Positions 13,505-22,868 of a DNA stretch of 22,868 nucleotides are shown piece by piece. Within the stretch, counting starts at the first letter, position 1; each line of letters begins with the position of its first letter. The stretch is from IMG/VR virus record IMGVR_UViG_3300031658_000143, positions 1-22,868 of that record; one strand, given 5' to 3'. The notes under the pieces were generated by a model. The model was not told the origin of the DNA. It searched no databases and saw nothing but the letters and a program-made list of their open reading frames with translations. A program made the position numbers and the translations under genes. The DNA is from a virus.

Positions 13505-16500
13505 ATGGCAGATTTATTAAATGAAGATTTACTTATGGAAGCCTCTGGCTTTACAGAAGATACAGAGGGTTATGGTAAATATAAAGAAAAAGAATATAAT
13601 CTTTTAAAAGATGCTGGTGTATCAGATGAGGAACTGCAAGGTATAAAATTTGAAAGCAACGCATTAAAATCAACAAATCAAGGATGGTGGAAAAATGCCA
13701 TAGATGGAGTTGGAGATTGGGCAGTAGGTGATGATGCAGATTGGGACACTTATTGGGAAAGAGGTTTAGGTAAATCTAATATAAATCTTGCAACACAATT
13801 TCATTCAAGTGGAAAATATGGATATGATTGGCAAAAAGCCATGGAAGCAGAGCCAGAAGACACAGGTGCATTAGAAAGAGCATTTGAAACTGTAGTAGGT
13901 CTAGGTGCAGACTTGCCAACATTTATAGCAGGTGGTGCAGCAGGAAAGGTATTAACAGGTGGTAGTGCATTTGGTACAGGTTTTGGTGCAGGTTTTGTAA
14001 ATGACAGTATTAAAGGTATGTATGTAGAGGCTTTAAATAGAGGTGAAGTTAATAGCTTTAGTGAATGGTGGGATATATTTTTAAAACATGGAGTTGCAGA
14101 AGGTGTTAAGGGTGGATTAGTAGTAGGATCAATGTCAGTAGCACCATTAGCATTAGGTGCAATGAAAATACCAACAAACTATATAACTAAAAATATGTCT
14201 AGATGGGTTGCCCTTACAGGTGTTGGTGCAATGTTAGATGGAGAATTACCCTCAAAAGAAACAATGGTCAATAATGCTCTTATACTTGGTGCATTTGGTA
14301 TTGTAGAACCAAAAGCAGCGAAGATGGTAAATGATAGTAGTTTAAAAAATAAAACAGATACTAATACAATAGTAGATCAAACTATCAAAAATATTCAAAT
14401 GAAGGAAGATGCAGGTAGTAAAAATATTAAGACATATAGAAAAGATAGAAAAATAACAGAATTAGAAATTACAGTAATTAAAAAAGAATTAGTAGAATTA
14501 AACAAACTAGATACTCTATCAAAACCTAAAGTTGTTGAAAATAAAGCTAAAGAAATAGAAAGACTTGAAGCAGAAGTTAAACTTTTAAAAGATAAGATAT
14601 TAAAACCTGCTAAAAATTTAACTGAATCTGTAAAAGATATCAATTTAACAAAATTAAAAATAGCAGAAAAAGAATTAGCAGAAGCTAAAGATGGAAATTT
14701 AATAGAAAAAGGTCAAGTTGAAGCATTTACCGAAGGACAAAAAATTAAATTAGAAAAAGAAACAAAAGAGCTATCTGATAAAATACAAGAAGCACAAGTT
14801 GAATTTAATATTATTAAAGGAAAAAAGAAGAATGGTGAAATGTTTAATGAGGATAGATATATAGAACTAAAAAATTTAATTAAAAAGAATGCTAATAAAA
14901 TTATAGAGAATAATAAATTACTAAATAAAGATAAACGAATTTTAGAACTAGAAGAACAATTAGCTGATAGAGGTGAAACAGTTACAAGGATAGTAGAACA
15001 AGATAAAAGTATTAATAGATCGTCTGATAAAGATGTAAATGCTATAATGGATAAAGTAGCACTTGGTAAAATGAAAGTTAATAATAATTTTAAATCTTAC
15101 GCAGCTAATTTAGTTACATCTATGATTGATAGATTATACCCTATTTTAGAAGCTGTAAAAGAAGCTAAAGATAGAGGTGTTAAAGTAGGTAAATTAGATG
15201 TTTATAAACAAATGCGTTTATCTGTAGGAAATATTGGTAAAGGATTTCATTTTATTAAACACGCAACATTTGATTTTAGAACTTTAAAAGATAATGGAAA
15301 GGGATTAACTGTAATATTAAAAGATGTTATTAAAACACCAGATAAATACAGAGATTTTAATGCTTTCTCTATTGCTAAAAGAGCATTAGAAAAATTTGCA
15401 CAAGGTATAGAAACTGGCTTTTCTTCTTCTAAATCAGAAAGAGCAGGTTTAAAAAGAGTAATAGAAAAATTTGAAAAAGAATTCGGACAAACTCATAAAG
15501 AGTTACAAGAATATCAACAAAGAGTTTTAGTATATTTAAAAGATTCTGGATTATTATCAGCAGAATTATTTGAAAGAGTATTAGAATTAAATAAAGATTT
15601 TGTTCCATTACATAAAGTTATGGATGCAAGTATTAAAGCTGATTCATTAGGAAATATAGTTAAAAATCCAATAAGAAAAATTAAAGACAGTATTTTAGAA
15701 AAAGATAAACCAGTTATTGATCCAATAGAGAACATGATGTTGAATACAATTCATTTTATTAGTATGGCTGAAAAAAATGCTATAAATAAATCATTTATTA
15801 ATATGGCATTAGAAGCACAGAAAGCTAAAAACAAAAATCCAGAACTTGATTTGTTTGCTGACATAAAAGAAATAAAAGACCTTAAACCTGTAAAAGTAAG
15901 TAAAGAAGAATTAAAAGATATTATTATAGATAATAAAGGTACAACAGCAAATTTAGAACATGGTATGACTATCTTTAGACAGAATGGTTCATTTGTAGAT
16001 AAAACAAAAATAGCCGTATATGAAAATGGTAAACCAAAAATATATGAAGTAGGAAAAGATTTTGCAGATGCTTTAAAAGATGCAAACTGGTTTCAAACAC
16101 AAGCATGGGCAAGAATACTTGCTGCACCCACAAGAACATTAAGAGCAGGTGCCACACTTGACCCTGCATTTATTCTTAAAAACTTTGGTAGAGATACATT
16201 TTTTGCATCTGTATTTTCTAAAAATAGTTTTGTACCTTTCTGGACTTCTATGAAGGGAATCTTTATGCAATTTGGTGATAAAGGCCATAAATCTACAGAA
16301 GTATATAAACAGTTTATGAAATCTGGTGGTATGCAATCTACATTATTATCATTTGATAGAAGTTATTTTAAAGATGGACAAATGTTATCAGAATTAACAG
16401 GTAGAAAATTACACAATACAATTAATCCTAAAAGTTGGTTAGAAACATTAAGGGTATTTTCAGAAATGGTTGAAACAGGTTCAAGACTTGGGGATTTTAA

Positions 16501-17755
16501 AATGACTATAAAAAGACTTGAAAAAGAAAATGCTAAATTACCAGAAGGCAGTAAAATGTCTGAAAGAGAATTATTAGAATTAGCAGGTTTTGAAGCTAGA
16601 GATTTAACTGTAGATTTTAGAAAAATGGGAACAGCAATGCAAGGGCTTAATATGATTAATGCATTTTTTAATGCAAGGGTACAAGGACTAGTTAAAATAA
16701 AAGAAGGTCTTGCTGATCCTAAAACAAGAAATAAAGTAATGTTAAATGGTATTAGAAATATTACTGCACCTTCATTATTAATTTGGTATAGTAATAAAGA
16801 TAGTCAAGTTTATAAAGATTTACCTCAATGGCAAAAAGACTTAAATTGGATTATAATAACTAAAGAAGGTACGGAAGATCAAATAGTATGGAGAATACCT
16901 AAACCTTTTGAAATAGGTTGGATTTTTGGTACTTTGCCAGAAAGAATATTAGATGGTATATATAATTCAGATGGTGGTAAAGATTTAATTAATTCTTCTA
17001 AACAATTTAGTTACGATTTTATAAAATCTTTAGGCCCAGTACCAGAATTTATGAAGCCTTTTATGGAAGATTATGCTAATGAAAGTATGTTTTTTCAAAG
17101 ACCAATAGTTCCTTATGCTTTAGAAAGACTATTACCAGAATATCAATATTCAGAATACACAAGTGAAACTGCAAAATTAATTGCTAGTGTATTTGAAAAA
17201 TTAAGACCAGAAGAAGCAACAGAATTGTTTGGCCCAAGTTTAGATAGTCCTGCTAAAGTAGAAAATTATATAAGAGCATGGACAGGTGGATTAGGTAAAT
17301 ATACATTAGATGTATTAGATTATGCTTTAAAAAAAACAGGTGTAACAACACCAGTTAAAAAACCTTGGTCAGATAATTGGATTAAAAATTTAGCTGATAT
17401 GCCTATAATAGCCTCATTTGTTATTAGAAATCCAAGTGCTTCATCAGAACATATTACTAAATTTTGGAAACTATGGATGCCTGTTCAACAAAAACTTGCA
17501 ACATATAACTATTTAATGAGCCAAAATAAACCAGAAGAAGGTGTGAAAATCTTTAATAAAATTGACCCAAATAAATTAACTTTAGAAACTACAGCTGGAG
17601 TTATCAAGGGTATTGGTGATTCAATAGATATGATATATAAGAATAATGAAATTGACCCAAATGAAAAAAGACAGTTAATAGATGGATGGTATCTAGATAT
17701 AATTGGAATGGCAAAAGAATCTTTAAAAATACAGAAAGAATTAAAAAATAAGTAA
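13505..17755 (+). CDS. Giant ejection protein (gp16-like) with coiled coil and LPD38-like region
   Basis: At 1416 residues this is the largest protein in the window and fits the T7 gp16 slot (about 1300 residues), the last internal protein of the DNA-ejection apparatus. Residues 1-120 are acidic and Trp-rich. Residues ~120-275 are Gly/Ala-rich and hydrophobic (ETVVGLGADLPTFIAGGAAG, VKGGLVVGSMSVAPLALGAM), able to insert in membranes. Residues ~298-490 are a Lys/Glu coiled coil. From ~850 to 1150 the pattern (LAAPTRTLRAGATLDPAFILKNFGRD near 872-897, then NAFFNARVQGL near 1055) matches the LPD38-type region of phage and plasmid polyvalent proteins. No lytic transglycosylase or peptidase motif is visible, unlike T7 gp16. 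The ribosome site is weak. Confidence 0.85.
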   Translation: MADLLNEDLLMEASGFTEDTEGYGKYKEKEYNLLKDAGVSDEELQGIKFESNALKSTNQGWWKNAIDGVGDWAVGDDADWDTYWERGLGKSNINLATQFHSSGKYGYDWQKAMEAEPEDTGALERAFETVVGLGADLPTFIAGGAAGKVLTGGSAFGTGFGAGFVNDSIKGMYVEALNRGEVNSFSEWWDIFLKHGVAEGVKGGLVVGSMSVAPLALGAMKIPTNYITKNMSRWVALTGVGAMLDGELPSKETMVNNALILGAFGIVEPKAAKMVNDSSLKNKTDTNTIVDQTIKNIQMKEDAGSKNIKTYRKDRKITELEITVIKKELVELNKLDTLSKPKVVENKAKEIERLEAEVKLLKDKILKPAKNLTESVKDINLTKLKIAEKELAEAKDGNLIEKGQVEAFTEGQKIKLEKETKELSDKIQEAQVEFNIIKGKKKNGEMFNEDRYIELKNLIKKNANKIIENNKLLNKDKRILELEEQLADRGETVTRIVEQDKSINRSSDKDVNAIMDKVALGKMKVNNNFKSYAANLVTSMIDRLYPILEAVKEAKDRGVKVGKLDVYKQMRLSVGNIGKGFHFIKHATFDFRTLKDNGKGLTVILKDVIKTPDKYRDFNAFSIAKRALEKFAQGIETGFSSSKSERAGLKRVIEKFEKEFGQTHKELQEYQQRVLVYLKDSGLLSAELFERVLELNKDFVPLHKVMDASIKADSLGNIVKNPIRKIKDSILEKDKPVIDPIENMMLNTIHFISMAEKNAINKSFINMALEAQKAKNKNPELDLFADIKEIKDLKPVKVSKEELKDIIIDNKGTTANLEHGMTIFRQNGSFVDKTKIAVYENGKPKIYEVGKDFADALKDANWFQTQAWARILAAPTRTLRAGATLDPAFILKNFGRDTFFASVFSKNSFVPFWTSMKGIFMQFGDKGHKSTEVYKQFMKSGGMQSTLLSFDRSYFKDGQMLSELTGRKLHNTINPKSWLETLRVFSEMVETGSRLGDFKMTIKRLEKENAKLPEGSKMSERELLELAGFEARDLTVDFRKMGTAMQGLNMINAFFNARVQGLVKIKEGLADPKTRNKVMLNGIRNITAPSLLIWYSNKDSQVYKDLPQWQKDLNWIIITKEGTEDQIVWRIPKPFEIGWIFGTLPERILDGIYNSDGGKDLINSSKQFSYDFIKSLGPVPEFMKPFMEDYANESMFFQRPIVPYALERLLPEYQYSEYTSETAKLIASVFEKLRPEEATELFGPSLDSPAKVENYIRAWTGGLGKYTLDVLDYALKKTGVTTPVKKPWSDNWIKNLADMPIIASFVIRNPSASSEHITKFWKLWMPVQQKLATYNYLMSQNKPEEGVKIFNKIDPNKLTLETTAGVIKGIGDSIDMIYKNNEIDPNEKRQLIDGWYLDIIGMAKESLKIQKELKNK

Positions 17756-17803: not shown

Positions 17804-19690
17804 ATGACAATTAGCACAACAATAATTAAGAACAGCTATTCTGGTGATGCCAGTAATGATACATTTGCGTATCAATTTAAGATATCTACTACGGCAGATA
17901 TGGAAGTTATTATACGTTCTGCGGCAGGTGCTGAAACTGTTAAAACTTTAACTACTCATTATACAGTAACTGGTGCAGGAACTGCATCTGGTGGTAATGT
18001 AGTATTTGAATCTGGTGCAATACCTTCTGCAACTGAAACAGTTATTTTAAGAAGATCAACTACACAAACACAAGCATTAGATTTAGTAGAAAATGATCCA
18101 TTTACTGCTGATAGTGTTGAGAGTGCATTTGATAAAAATTTAGCTTTAGTACAAGAATTACAAGAAGAATCTAATAGATCATTAAAAATTTCAAGAACAA
18201 ATACTATGACAAGTACCGAGTTTACAAATTCGGCAACTGATAGAGCAAGTAAAGTTTTAGCCTTTGATGCTGATGGAGAACTTTCAGTTACACAAGAACT
18301 TGGAACTTATGAAGGAACTTCTGCAACAACTACAACAGCAGCTTTTGTTTTAAGAGATTTAGTTAAAGGTTCAACTACTGCTCAACTAAATAATATTTAT
18401 ATTTGTATTAAAGCATCACCTATTGGTACAGCTTTAACTAATACAACTTATTGGGTTTTAATTGTAGATGCTGTTAGTGCAGCAACATCTGCTACAACTG
18501 CAACAACTAAAGCAGCAGCAGCAGCATCATCTGCAACAGCCGCAGCAGCATCTGAAACAGCAGCTGAAACAGCAGAAACAAATGCTGAAACTGCAGAAAC
18601 AAATGCAGCAGCTTCTTATGATAGTTTTGATGATAGATATTTAGGATCAAAAAGTTCAGCACCAAGTGTTGATAATGATGGTGGAAGTTTATTAACTGGA
18701 GCATTATATTTTAATACATCTGATAATACAATGTATAGTTATACAGGCTCTGCATGGGTATCTTTAAAACCAAGTTCTGCTGAACAGACAGCTATTAATG
18801 CTTTAGGTGCAAGTGCAGTAGTAACTGATATGGGTATTTTAGCAACTACAGATATAGTAGCTGACATGGCTATACTTGGAACAAGTGATGTAGTTGCAGA
18901 TATGGCAATTCTTGCAACAAGTGATGTTGTAACTGATATGAATACTTTAGGAACTGCGGCTATTGTTACTGATATGGATTTACTAGCAACATCAGCAAAT
19001 GTAACTGCAATGGGTGTATTAGGAACTGCTGCAGTAGTTGAAGATATGGGAATTTTAGGAACGTCTGCAAATGTTACAGCTATGTCAACTGTTTCATCTA
19101 ATGTAGATGGTGTAAATAGTTTTGCAGAAAGATATAGAGTAACATCTGGAGATCCAGGTTCTTCACTTAATGCAGGAGATTTAAATTATAATACTTCAAG
19201 TAATGCTTTAAAATATTACAATGGAAGTGCTTGGTCATCAATTGGTGTAAATACAGATGAAAGTGCAAAAGTATCAGCTAATGATAGTACAGCTGGTTTT
19301 TTAAACGGAAAACTTGTAGCTGGAAATAAAATTACTTTTACAGAAAATAATAATGGATCAAATGAAACTTTAACTATAGCTGCTTTAGGTGGTATAGAAT
19401 GGCAATCAGTAATTACAGGTGCAACAGTTAATGTAACTGCTGGTAAAGGATATTTTGTAAATACAGCAAGTAATGCTTGTACTGCAACTTTACCATCTTC
19501 TCCAAGTTTAGGAGAAGAAATAAGATTTATAGATTACGGAGCAACTTTTGATACTAATGCTTTAACAATTGCTAGAAATGGAAAATATATTCAAGGTGCA
19601 AATAGTGATTTAGTTGTTTCAACTGAACGAGCAGCTTTTGGATTAGTCTTTGTAGATAATACTCAAGGATGGTTACTAACAGAAAAATAG
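17804..19690 (+). CDS. Tail fibre protein with T7 gp17-type N-terminus and tandem repeats
   Basis: This trimeric fibre attaches to the tail and contacts the host surface. Residues 1-135 match the T7 gp17 N-terminal anchor (YSGDASNDTFAYQFKI, then Y.V.G.GT..GG.V.F, then VILRR.T..TQ.L, DPFTADSVESAFDK). An Ala/Thr/Glu-rich, coiled-coil-like stretch (225-270) precedes module 1 at 278-320 (RY.GSKS..P......G.LYFNTSDN.MY.YTGSAW). Eight 12-residue repeats follow (340-435), then a related module 2 (443-481). The C-terminal domain (~530-628: GYFVNTASNACTATLPSSPS.G..I.F.DY, ending VDNTQGWLLTEK) is of a type common in marine phage fibres. There is no visible endosialidase-like or chaperone domain. Confidence 0.92.
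   Translation: MTISTTIIKNSYSGDASNDTFAYQFKISTTADMEVIIRSAAGAETVKTLTTHYTVTGAGTASGGNVVFESGAIPSATETVILRRSTTQTQALDLVENDPFTADSVESAFDKNLALVQELQEESNRSLKISRTNTMTSTEFTNSATDRASKVLAFDADGELSVTQELGTYEGTSATTTTAAFVLRDLVKGSTTAQLNNIYICIKASPIGTALTNTTYWVLIVDAVSAATSATTATTKAAAAASSATAAAASETAAETAETNAETAETNAAASYDSFDDRYLGSKSSAPSVDNDGGSLLTGALYFNTSDNTMYSYTGSAWVSLKPSSAEQTAINALGASAVVTDMGILATTDIVADMAILGTSDVVADMAILATSDVVTDMNTLGTAAIVTDMDLLATSANVTAMGVLGTAAVVEDMGILGTSANVTAMSTVSSNVDGVNSFAERYRVTSGDPGSSLNAGDLNYNTSSNALKYYNGSAWSSIGVNTDESAKVSANDSTAGFLNGKLVAGNKITFTENNNGSNETLTIAALGGIEWQSVITGATVNVTAGKGYFVNTASNACTATLPSSPSLGEEIRFIDYGATFDTNALTIARNGKYIQGANSDLVVSTERAAFGLVFVDNTQGWLLTEK
18821..19108 (+). repeat. Eight tandem 36-bp repeats encoding 12-residue units in the tail fibre
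   Basis: In-frame degenerate repeats with the consensus V(T/A)DM-x-(I/L)L-(A/G)T-(S/A)-x-(V/I/N), for example VTDMGILATTDI, VADMAILGTSDV and VADMAILATSDV. Seven units fit well and the eighth (VTAMSTVSSNVD) is worn. The constant 12-residue period and alternating hydrophobic positions suggest a regular trimeric shaft, beta-spiral or coiled. Confidence 0.85.
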
Positions 19691-19701
19691 GATAAAAAAT
19701 T

Positions 19702-21123
19702 ATGACAACATATAAATCAATTAAATACAATTTTAATGGAACAGAACTTGGTGGAATTGCTGTTAGTCCAACAGTAAGTTCAATTAGTCCATCATCAAAA
19801 ACAGCTGCACAATTAGCTGCTGGAACTACTATTGCTATAACTGGTACTGGTTTTGTATCTGGTGCTGGAGTTAATTTTATTCATGCAAATGGAACACAAG
19901 TTGCTTCTCCAACTGTTGTTGTTAATTCTGCAACTTCAATAACTGCTACAGTACCATCTTCAATGGCTGATACAAATTCAGATCCTATTGATGTTCAAGT
20001 TACTGGTAATGCAGTTGGTCAAAAAGATAATCTTTTATCTATTGATGATAACCCAATTTTTAATACAGCAGCAGGAACTTTAGGAACTATAACTGATGGA
20101 GTAAGAGGTGCTGGTGCTTATACTATATCTCCAGTAACTGCAGTAGATCCAGAAGGTGTTAGTGTTACTTATTCTAAAACAGCAGGATCTTTTCCTGGTG
20201 GAATGTCTTTAAATAGTAGTACTGGTGCTTTAACTGGAGCAATTACTGCTGTTGGTTCAAATACAACTTACACATTTACAATTAGAGCAACTGCTGGATC
20301 ACAAACATCTGATAGACAATTTACAATAGTTGTTTCTGCTCCAACAATTACCGAATTTAAAACAGCAGGAGCAGGATCACACACACCTAGTTTTTCTGGT
20401 GCAATGGCAGTATTAGCTATTGCTGCTGGTGGTGGTGGAGATAGTGGGCCAGCTGGTGGTCACAATGGTGGTGGTGGTGGAGGTGGATTAATTTTACATC
20501 CATCTTATTCTGTTTCATCTGGATCAGCTATACCTTTTTTTATAGGTAGTGGAACAAGTAGTGGTACTGGAGAAAATTCTACATGGGGTGCAAACAACGG
20601 AACTGCAGTTACTACAGCAACTATTTTAACTGCTTTAGGTGGAGGCTCATCTAATACTGGAGATGGTGGTTCTGGTGGTGGTCGATCTCACTCAAGTGGT
20701 ACTCCAGGACAGGCTATACAAACAAATTCAAACACAATTTCTCCACATAGTAGGACTTATGGTTTTGGAAATAATGGTGGTACTGCAACTTATTCTAATC
20801 CATCTCATCCATCTGGTGGAGGAGGTGGTGCAGGTGCTGTCGGTGGTAATGCTTCTGGTGGTAATCAAGCTGGAAATGGTGGTGCTGGAAAAGATGTAAC
20901 TTCTACTTTTGGAAGTGGAGTACACAACTCTGGTATTTTTGCTGGAGGGGGTGGTGGAGGAACTCACCAAGCAGGTCATTCTGGAGCTGCAGGATCTGGA
21001 GGTGCTGGACATGGAACAACAACTGGTAATTCTAACATTGGTCAAAATGGAACTGCTAATACTGGTGGTGGTGCAGGAGCAGATGCTTTAGGTGGAAGTG
21101 GAATTATTATAATTAAATATTAG
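19702..21123 (+). CDS. Tail fibre or adhesin with Ig-like domains and glycine-rich tip
   Basis: A 473-residue probable receptor-binding protein. Residues ~22-115 resemble an IPT/TIG Ig-like domain (PTVSSISPSSKTAAQLAAGT, ITGTGFVSGAGVNFI). Residues ~117-212 resemble a cadherin or He_PIG-type domain (TISPVTAVDPEGVSVTYS...GMSLNSSTGALTG, YTFTIRATAG). Residues ~217-473 are the glycine-rich domain that opens TEFKTAGAGSHTPSFSGAMA and ends GGSGIIIIKY, with long GGGGGG runs. This C-terminal type recurs in phage adhesins and may fold as packed polyglycine-II helices, as in the gp38 adhesins of T4-like phages. It has an AGGA ribosome site 9 bases before the ATG and directly follows the main fibre gene, so it is probably a distal tip or branched second fibre. 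Confidence 0.85.
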   Translation: MTTYKSIKYNFNGTELGGIAVSPTVSSISPSSKTAAQLAAGTTIAITGTGFVSGAGVNFIHANGTQVASPTVVVNSATSITATVPSSMADTNSDPIDVQVTGNAVGQKDNLLSIDDNPIFNTAAGTLGTITDGVRGAGAYTISPVTAVDPEGVSVTYSKTAGSFPGGMSLNSSTGALTGAITAVGSNTTYTFTIRATAGSQTSDRQFTIVVSAPTITEFKTAGAGSHTPSFSGAMAVLAIAAGGGGDSGPAGGHNGGGGGGGLILHPSYSVSSGSAIPFFIGSGTSSGTGENSTWGANNGTAVTTATILTALGGGSSNTGDGGSGGGRSHSSGTPGQAIQTNSNTISPHSRTYGFGNNGGTATYSNPSHPSGGGGGAGAVGGNASGGNQAGNGGAGKDVTSTFGSGVHNSGIFAGGGGGGTHQAGHSGAAGSGGAGHGTTTGNSNIGQNGTANTGGGAGADALGGSGIIIIKY

Positions 21124-21132
21124 GAAACGATT

Positions 21133-21312
21133 ATGAATTTACAAGAATATTATATTATTAAAGAAGAAGCAATATCTAGTGATAAACATAATACATTACT
21201 AGAAAAAGAAGTCGTTGTATTAAACCCAAATGGAGATGAAGAAACTATTGCTTTAGGAGCAGTTGCATCTTTTATAGAAATGGGCTATACAATGCGAGAT
21301 GCTGATTTTTAA
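21133..21312 (+). CDS. Small acidic protein of unknown function
   Basis: This 59-residue protein (starts MNLQEYYIIKEEA, ends YTMRDADF) has an AGGA ribosome site 7 bases before the ATG. It is acidic, with a helical start, a strand-rich middle (KEVVVLNPNGDEETIALG) and a short amphipathic C-terminal helix. I recognise no family. Normal codon use, the ribosome site and the 14-base overlap with the next gene make it credible. It is the first gene of the accessory cluster after the adhesins, and could be a small assembly factor for them or belong to the cluster. Confidence 0.7.
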   Translation: MNLQEYYIIKEEAISSDKHNTLLEKEVVVLNPNGDEETIALGAVASFIEMGYTMRDADF

Positions 21313-22030
21313 AAGAAAACCTAAGGTTACTTTTTGGGCTAGTACTAAAGGTTTTAAAGATATTATAAAACCAGAAAAAGCAAATAAATATATTCCTAAA
21401 TGGTTTAAACACGCAAAACAATCAGAAGTACCTAATAATTCAAATGTAAAAAATTGTATAGGTTTTACTGACTATTTTAAAATGGGTTATGTAATTCCTT
21501 TATGGTGTGATTTAAATATTACAATTAATGAGTTAGGTAATATAGGTTGGCAAAGTCCACATAGTTATTATCAATTTGATTTTCATCACCCTTTTCAATT
21601 ACAAAATTTAGTACCAGAACATGAAAAAGATAAAATAGCAGTTGTAATAAAAACACATTGTCCTTATCACGCAAAAGTAACAAAAGGATATTCTTTATTA
21701 CAATTACCAATGACTTATTGGTATGAAAAAGATTGGACAGTTGCTTCTGGAATATTTCCTAGTTCTATATATCCAGAATTAAATCAACAAATAATAATTT
21801 ACAAAAGTTTTTTTGATAATTTAAAACCACATAATGGTATTAGATCAAGAGTAATTCCTAAAGGAACTCCATTAGCTCAATACATGATTATTCCAAATGA
21901 ATATGATGGAGAGGTAATTGAAGAAACTAAAGAACTGGCAGAATATAGATATAAAACTAATTTAAATGTTAATACTACTTTTCAAAAAAAATTTCCTGAT
22001 ATGTTAAAATGCCCTTATGTTAAAAGATAA
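21299..22030 (+). CDS. Conserved-type phage protein of unknown function (DUF6065-like pattern)
   Basis: This 243-residue protein starts LIFKRKPKVTFWASTKGF and has a PKWFKHAKQ segment near residue 33. It then shows C(I)GFTDYFKMGYVIPLWCDLNI (residues ~53-74), a Trp/His-rich middle with QFDFHHPFQLQ, and GYSLLQLPM...W (about 130-142). The end has the pattern IRSRVIPKGTPLAQYMIIPNE. This order (CxxF...GY.IPL..D, then GYS.L..P, then I..GTP..Q..) matches a protein family that recurs in marine phages and bacteria and has no established function. I relate it tentatively to DUF6065. It is soluble, with no membrane segment. It overlaps the gene before and the gene after by 14 bases each, so translation is coupled. 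Confidence 0.75.
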   Translation: MLIFKRKPKVTFWASTKGFKDIIKPEKANKYIPKWFKHAKQSEVPNNSNVKNCIGFTDYFKMGYVIPLWCDLNITINELGNIGWQSPHSYYQFDFHHPFQLQNLVPEHEKDKIAVVIKTHCPYHAKVTKGYSLLQLPMTYWYEKDWTVASGIFPSSIYPELNQQIIIYKSFFDNLKPHNGIRSRVIPKGTPLAQYMIIPNEYDGEVIEETKELAEYRYKTNLNVNTTFQKKFPDMLKCPYVKR

Positions 22031-22499
22031 TTTTTTAGACAAAGAAAGTTTTACAAAACTTTATAATACAGTAACAAGTCCATTCATGCCTTACTTTATT
22101 CAGAATGGTTGTGCTTTTGAAAGTGATAATAGACCATTATTAACACATAAGATAATAGATTTAGATCAAAAAATACATAGTGGTACTTATGATATTATTG
22201 CTAAACCTATTTTAGAAAAATTAAATGCTTTTAAAATTTTAAGATTAAAAATTAATTGTTATCCTAACTCTGGTAAAGTTATAAAGTCTGGGTGGCATTT
22301 TGATTTACCTAATAAACATAAAGTGTGTTTATTAAATGTTAATACAAATAATGGTTACACAGATTTTAAAAATAAAGATTTAACTGTAGGAAGTTCAAAA
22401 GAAAATACTGCTTTATTGTTTGATGGCAAAGAAAAACATAGATCAATTTCTCAAACAGATACATTGTGGAGATTTAATATTAATATAAATTATGAGTAG
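22017..22499 (+). CDS. Probable 2-oxoglutarate/Fe(II)-dependent oxygenase, small form
   Basis: This 160-residue protein carries the facial-triad pattern of the double-stranded beta-helix oxygenases. GWHFD gives HxD at H94 and D96, and H141 lies in FDGKEKHRSI. R152 in WRFNINI sits 11 residues after that His, where the 2-oxoglutarate carboxylate is usually bound. The strands between (KVCLLNVNTNNGYTDF, then ENTALLFDGK) match the core of prolyl-4-hydroxylase-like and phage oxygenases. Such enzymes use O2 and 2-oxoglutarate to hydroxylate a protein, nucleotide, sugar or small molecule; the substrate here is unknown. The length is short but enough for the core. It overlaps its neighbours by 14 and 8 bases. 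Confidence 0.75.
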   Translation: MLKDNFLDKESFTKLYNTVTSPFMPYFIQNGCAFESDNRPLLTHKIIDLDQKIHSGTYDIIAKPILEKLNAFKILRLKINCYPNSGKVIKSGWHFDLPNKHKVCLLNVNTNNGYTDFKNKDLTVGSSKENTALLFDGKEKHRSISQTDTLWRFNININYE

Positions 22500-22868
22500 T
22501 TTAGATAATTATTTTGCTACACCAATGTATTCTGATGATAGTTATTTATTATCAATAGATAATATAAATTTACTTAAAAAAGAATTTAAAGATAATACTA
22601 TTAATGCTGGTGGTAATTATACAAGTAAAAATACAACAGTATTAAACAATCCAAATCTAAAAAATTTCAAAGATTATATTGAATCTCAATTAGATCATTA
22701 CTGGCATAATGTTCTTGAATATACAGATGATACTAAATTAGTAATCACTCAAAGCTGGATAAACTTTAACACTAAAGATACCTTTCATCATATTCATCAA
22801 CATAGTAATTCTATTATATCTGGAGTATTTTATATAGAAAATCCAACTCCTATTATTTTTGATAGACC
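22492..22868 (+). CDS. Second 2-oxoglutarate/Fe(II) oxygenase-family protein, cut by the window end
   Basis: An open frame from the ATG at 22492 runs off the right edge after 125 codons. It begins MSSLDNYFATPMYSDDS, a typical start of the phage oxygenase family in which the N-terminus names a metabolite-like site (F.TP.Y). It reaches the metal-binding region at residues ~88-115: SWINFNTKDTFHHIHQHSNS followed by IISGVFYIENP. The H.H.NS..SGVFY signature is that of the family with the 2OG-FeII_Oxy_5/TIGR02466 pattern. The start overlaps the previous gene by 8 bases. The C-terminal half, which should carry the distal His and the Arg, lies outside the window. Confidence 0.8.
   Translation, partial: MSSLDNYFATPMYSDDSYLLSIDNINLLKKEFKDNTINAGGNYTSKNTTVLNNPNLKNFKDYIESQLDHYWHNVLEYTDDTKLVITQSWINFNTKDTFHHIHQHSNSIISGVFYIENPTPIIFDR

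Follow-up and report, generated by a model that had tools for sequence, protein, structure and literature searches.

The window analysed here, 22,868 nt, is the whole of virus record IMGVR_UViG_3300031658_000143, itself a genome fragment, and derives from a phage with a T7-like podovirus backbone. It ends in a cassette of four overlapping plus-strand genes behind a tail adhesin: a small ORF of 59 aa at the adhesin/cassette junction (gene 1, 21133-21312), gene 2 of 243 aa (21299-22030; phrog_7084, dUTPase-fold, DUF6065-related), gene 3 of 160 aa (22017-22499; a compact 2-oxoglutarate (2OG)-Fe(II) oxygenase, phrog_274) and gene 4, 125 aa and open at the contig end (22492-22868; a 2OG-Fe(II) oxygenase of the PF13759/TIGR02466 type). 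The overlaps of 14, 14 and 8 nt reported in the first-pass annotation are exact, as calculated from the ORF coordinates. The 14 nt overlap of genes 2 and 3 is also present in three related contigs, L001, L039 and L040, in all of which a P4H gene and a halogenase gene likewise overlap by 20 nt. As these lengths are kept across contigs, the overlaps are conserved and not a product of chance, which supports translation of the cassette genes as one unit. The probable internal virion protein of the window, 1416 aa long, is encoded at 13505-17755 and matches the Large polyvalent protein associated domain LPD38 (E 4e-36).

The adhesin (19702..21123, plus strand) consists, by Pfam, of Ig-type repeats (PF05345) and a C-terminal glycine-rich domain (PF21722; residues 229-473, 20386..21123), in which the motifs TYGFGNNGG and HPSGGGGGAG occupy invariant positions of the adhesin alignment. 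It is preceded on the same strand by a tail-fibre gene (17804-19690), whose C-terminal ∼100 aa (19388..19690) form the left edge of an exchanged module. DNA similarity between the window and L001 begins at 19375 and runs to 22868, with 67% identity over 3.57 kb, and tail-fibre residues 529-628 are 59–63% identical to L001 and L040 and 56% to L039. Homologues of gene 1, 51–58 aa in length, occupy the equivalent place in L001, L039, L040 and L041, so that the small ORF is conserved at the junction in five contigs, the window included. In another subgroup (L155, L171, L179, L185 and L196) a different small ORF of ∼70 aa, with conserved GAWGSF and HFWPS motifs, replaces gene 1 and lies 16 nt behind the adhesin; a halogenase is found downstream in four of these five loci within the available sequence. 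As gene 1 is conserved only in the close group of the window and this other ORF stands at its place elsewhere, the reading of gene 1 as a RiPP precursor is unsupported as a general rule.

The nearest isolate by backbone is the Pelagibacter phage Baldr, with which the portal, capsid, scaffold and tail-tube proteins share 72–88% identity, a value which drops to 42% for the tail-fibre protein and about 36% for the Ig part of the adhesin. The Baldr adhesin is without the glycine-rich domain and no cassette is found behind it. The combination of adhesin and cassette occurs in four different backbones, the T7-like podovirus of the window, L001 with a lambda-J-type tail, L041 with T4-like head closure and sheath stabiliser proteins, and L040 with phrog_3287 and phrog_10775, and the module from the last 100 tail-fibre residues to gene 4 matches contigs of these other backbones. 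Adhesin identity to the window is 61, 54, 52 and 51% in L001, L039, L040 and L041, respectively, thus 51–61% across five contigs with different backbones, and gene 2 identity is 66, 49, 46 and 41% in the same order. Adhesin and cassette diverge together. Co-occurrence of the cassette in related genomes, which had been set beforehand as a refutation test, was thus found, with the genes in the same order at 41–66% identity. Jointly with the overall explanation developed below, we consider with moderate confidence that the window locus represents the left portion of a receptor-binding module that can be exchanged between phages.

The first-pass annotation had assigned both neighbouring proteins at the right end to the 2OG oxygenases, an assignment borne out by the analysis of each gene. 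In gene 3 the HxD...H...R pattern is present as the metal-binding HxD motif (H94 and D96, 22296..22304), the distal H141 of the metal triad (22437-22439) and R152, the Arg for 2OG (22470-22472), all on the plus strand. H94, H141 and R152 are aligned in 32/32 gene-3 homologues and D96 in 29/32, the other three having a gap in the alignment at this position; PF13640 is matched by 23 of the 32 family members and PF03013 by none. The AlphaFold2 model (pLDDT 92) has the double-stranded beta-helix fold, the feature which, alongside the metal triad, had been proposed for a structural check. It superimposes on PHD2 and other 2OG enzymes with Z 14–16 over 135–153 residues (rmsd 2.3–3.0), the best match, PHD2-like and extending over the whole length, having Z 16.0 and rmsd 2.4 over 153 residues. 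By motif, family and modelled fold, gene 3 belongs to the 2OG-Fe(II) oxygenases, and Fe(II)- and 2OG-dependent catalysis is predicted for its product.

This identification conflicts with the PHROG match of gene 3, phrog_274, which is labelled 'DNA endonuclease V'. DenV-type endonuclease V was considered and rejected for gene 3, which has no PF03013 match, matches 2OG families and has a 2OG fold. T4 DenV matches PF03013 and phrog_1183, a family apart from phrog_274; it is to phrog_274 that the genes called 'denV' in P-SSM7 and S-SM1 (T4-GC 100) belong. The phrog_274 label is therefore wrong, and the mislabelling is wide: relatives of gene 3 occur in 203 phage records, many labelled denV or DNA endonuclease V, and the cyanophage 'denV' of phrog_274/T4-GC100 is an oxygenase, so that claims of UV repair resting on that label need revision. 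Cyanophage examples carrying the label are L117:2989-3471 and L118:2995-3483. The distinction between phrog_274 and phrog_1183 is relevant to a disagreement between published accounts, in which denV was listed in 13 of 16 cyanophages in 2010 (PMC3037559) and a second paper states that no cyanophage has denV (PMC2984593). A separate pyrimidine dimer glycosylase, ORF91, has been reported in S-CREM1 (PMC9964418).

Gene 4 matches PF13759 at 29.7 bits (cut-off 27) although it is cut by the contig end, and TIGR02466 with E 7e-10 at 39.1 bits against a cut-off of 62.5, a score to be read for a truncated copy. Full-length homologues in L039 (69.5) and L040 (63.2) exceed this cut-off and that in L001 (60.6) falls just below it. 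The H.H.NS..SGVFY signature previously noted in gene 4 is present; the family carries HxH in place of HxD, the two positions being found in 139/140 and 138/140 members. The window copy contains the HxH and stops before the distal His and the Arg, both of which are present in the full-length L001 copy.

Gene 2 had been described as a conserved protein of unknown function. Conservation was upheld; the second part was not, as gene 2 is a dUTPase-fold, DUF6065-related protein. It matches phrog_7084 (E 5e-31), and its confident structure model (pLDDT 91) finds dUTPases as best matches (Z about 10–11, best 11.1), with about 2.5 Å over 115 residues in the tightest alignments. Gene 2 itself does not match DUF6065 (PF19541), which is matched by 9 of 60 aligned relatives (best E 1.8e-27). 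The position of the catalytic Asp of dUTPase motif III is Pro154 in the window and Asp in 31/60 relatives. Replacement of the catalytic Asp by Pro makes dUTPase activity unlikely, and gene 2, as judged from its residues and model, is probably not a dUTPase despite its fold. A genome scan for gene-2 relatives gave three matches, of which only that in Mesorhizobium was recovered by the gene-2 profile as an open gene; this lone relative (L121:7926-8681) matches DUF6065 and its surroundings are uninformative. Gene-2 relatives are also frequently arranged in tandem, with two to four copies, in loci L049-L061; there they follow a protein with 28–38% Gly, and the profiles built here detected no oxygenases.

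The two oxygenases had been interpreted as a coupled pair. This did not hold: because the record is a 22.9-kb fragment, the apparent pair is just the truncated left end of a longer cluster, which in relatives includes one or more further oxygenases and a VirX1-like halogenase. To the right of the region shared with the window, L001 encodes a full TIGR02466 gene, a PF13640 oxygenase of the P4H type, which also matches PKHD-type models, and a flavin-dependent halogenase, followed downstream by an endolysin, probably M15-type. The halogenase (PF04820, E 4e-112) contains GxGxxG, WxWxIP and the catalytic Lys and Glu, and its closest solved structure is VirX1 (E 1e-113), an enzyme reported to have a large, accessible active site and to accept many small aromatics (PMC8407142). 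The order adhesin, small ORF, gene 2, 2OG oxygenase, TIGR02466, P4H and halogenase is found in L001 and L039; both L039 and L040 have the L001 gene series plus a second P4H-like gene, and in L040, where small ORF and adhesin are present, gene 2 is preceded by two additional genes. L041 covers only the adhesin to gene 3, where the contig ends, and L038 begins inside the cassette. In the window phage, a P4H and a VirX1-like halogenase are predicted to the right of 22868. A 17-mer search for an extension of the window contig found no continuation, and the loci recovered were reused as controls; scans with gene 1, gene 4 or the L001 halogenase as single proteins added nothing.

Related enzymes are also clustered in cyanophages, where Syn9 gp42, annotated as a halogenase, overlaps gp43, a gene-2 homologue. 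In both Syn9 and Syn10 it is the second halogenase gene that has this overlap with the gene-2 homologue, and 2OG proteins, two gene-3 homologues among them, are encoded in a row behind it; a JmjC protein is also encoded in this cluster (gp41-gp54). The Syn9 gp42 translation agrees with the VirX1 chain over the stretches displayed for both, and the halogenase gene overlapping the gene-2 homologue appears to be the gene of VirX1. Up to a dozen divergent oxygenases are found within one cluster. Three tandem gene-3 relatives lie behind a halogenase and a gene-2 relative at L109:8737-10491. Genes of the oxygenase clusters also carry the labels 'ferrochelatase' and 'minor coat protein' (L029 gp46 and gp52, L034:10126-10707 and L151:4395-5054); L151:4395-5054 matches both phrog_3531 (ferrochelatase) and PF13640, and L029 gp52 matches DUF6445.

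The association between adhesin and cassette was examined in reverse, by scanning viral sequences with a DNA motif of the adhesin glycine-rich domain and not with the enzymes. A cassette enzyme was found within 3 kb downstream in 43 of the 64 adhesin loci having at least 1.5 kb of downstream sequence. Among 70 non-redundant adhesins scored with iterated profiles, cassette enzymes accounted for 104/215 ORFs at positions +1 to +4 compared to 1/167 at −1 to −4, and for 1/173 ORFs in 23 control contigs; the profiles were built here from few seeds and some loci are fragments. With loci collapsed to 30 nucleotide clusters the values were 39/115 downstream and 1/69 (p 1.7e-8); the p-values overstate certainty because independence of the ORFs is incomplete and because the motif, derived from cassette-bearing adhesins, is biased towards them. 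The direction of the association and the number of arrangements, 33 distinct ones behind the 70 adhesins, are the stronger points. The position of the cassette behind receptor-binding genes, to which attention had been drawn from the window alone, thus reflects a strong and one-directional association. Single oxygenases also occur directly behind such adhesins, before unrelated phage genes (L136 and L151).

Isolates with related Ig-type adhesins follow a similar pattern. In Mosig the adhesin ends in a glycine-rich C-terminus and is followed, two genes further on, by five 2OG genes, and Baldr, Eistla, HTVC022P, HTVC104P and Gjalp have adhesin C-termini that are not glycine-rich and no 2OG genes behind them. 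MedDCM-S42-C7 and Melnitz-3 carry glycine-rich adhesins without enzymes, and no enzymes were detected behind 16 of 52 glycine-rich adhesins. The isolate comparison indicates that the cassette is optional but, where present, goes with glycine-rich adhesins. Some of the cyanophage copies (S-B64, HTVC008M and S-RIM4) are located at a distance from tail genes, and a role on tails therefore need not extend to every member. No residue was clearly tied to enzyme content when the composition of adhesins with and without enzymes was compared; Pro was slightly higher with enzymes (6.4% versus 4.5%, p 0.01 before correction), which is suggestive only, and Tyr was lower.

Combined, these results lead us to propose, at a level of confidence neither high nor low, that the locus is an exchangeable glycine-rich adhesin module which carries its own hydroxylating, and sometimes halogenating, enzymes, the probable substrates being the adhesin or other tail proteins. 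The cassette genes would be made late, together with the adhesin; the oxygenases would hydroxylate residues of the glycine-rich domain or of a partner tail protein before assembly; and the halogenase, where present, would halogenate residues of the same proteins. Such modification could alter the stability or receptor binding of the modified tail protein, and the dUTPase-fold gene 2 product may be a non-catalytic binding or scaffold subunit. Modification of tail proteins is supported by the fold of gene 3, closest to peptidyl hydroxylases such as PHD2, and by the large, accessible active site of VirX1 (PMC8407142). A broader version is put forward only tentatively: marine phages would carry self-modifying adhesins, a swappable glycine-rich receptor-binding protein being packaged with its own hydroxylases with or without a halogenase; VirX1 would have a tail protein of phages as its natural substrate; and many of the '2OG AMGs' of cyanophages would be enzymes of virion maturation and not of metabolism.

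The enzymes could instead be auxiliary metabolic genes that make or modify host small molecules, by drawing down 2-oxoglutarate to tune nitrogen signalling or by producing halogenated metabolites, with their place behind the adhesin incidental. Metabolic roles have been published, in terms of 2OG/NtcA (PMC3037559), antibiotic protection by PrnA (PMC2984593; PMC9964418) and reprogramming of host metabolism (PMC9602691), and the acceptance of many small aromatics by VirX1 (PMC8407142) agrees with them. However, this does not predict a one-sided association with glycine-rich adhesins, the joint absence of cassette and glycine-rich domain in Baldr or the presence of up to a dozen divergent oxygenases in one cluster, and we regard it as rather improbable. 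Tail-fibre regions are exchange hotspots, and adjacency to the adhesin may therefore reflect insertion; a hotspot behind receptor-binding genes carrying the cassette without a working link to the adhesin, to which we give slightly less weight, would account for the mosaic composition, with its 33 architectures, and for the glycine-rich adhesins that are not followed by enzymes. A general hotspot should, however, gather many gene types and do so behind other adhesin types also, whereas the five related isolates whose adhesins are not glycine-rich have no such enzymes.

The cassette might also change a component of the host envelope, through late receptor exclusion or modification of a glycan precursor, a reading favoured by its place next to host-recognition genes and by the ability of 2OG enzymes to use lipids and sugars as substrates. 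We consider this unlikely, since the window-type cassettes showed no glycosyl- or acyltransferase and gene 3 comes closest in fold to peptidyl hydroxylases, although a fold does not by itself determine the substrate. A role in DNA repair or nucleotide chemistry, with gene 3 a DenV-type endonuclease V and gene 2 a dUTPase, follows the PHROG and GenBank labels and the dUTPase-like fold of gene 2; it is largely refuted by residues and folds, given the separate family of T4 DenV (PF03013/phrog_1183), the 2OG fold of the phrog_274 family and the missing catalytic Asp in gene 2, and is very improbable.

2OG oxygenases are among the commonest accessory genes of cyanophages, a single genome holding as many as 24 (PMC9602691), and their reading as metabolic genes is currently accepted without tests. 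The strong directional link to one adhesin type offers a concrete, testable substrate class for them, and the movement of a cassette together with its adhesin between unrelated phages points to chemical modification by phages of their own receptor-binding proteins. The open-access literature covered gives no natural role for VirX1 and yielded no paper on glycine-rich phage adhesins accompanied by oxygenases.

Several known systems resemble the cassette in part. T4 DenV shares only an annotation name, in PHROG and GenBank, with gene 3, the families being unrelated. PHD2/EGLN1, PiuC/YbiX and bacterial P4H are like gene 3 in fold and in the HxD...H...R motif (Z up to 16) but only 9–18% identical to it. 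The Syn9/Syn10 cluster shares the halogenase with an overlapping gene-2 homologue, TIGR02466, P4H and two gene-3 homologues, and lies behind genes annotated as tail-fibre assembly. It differs in being much larger, in belonging to 177-kb T4-like myoviruses of cyanobacteria, in a gene 2 of only about 24% identity and in a changed order with the halogenase first. Phages modify their own virion proteins with their own enzymes, for example by glycosylation; the cassette would be alike if its enzymes act on the phage's own tail proteins, but the modifications proposed here are hydroxylation and halogenation instead.
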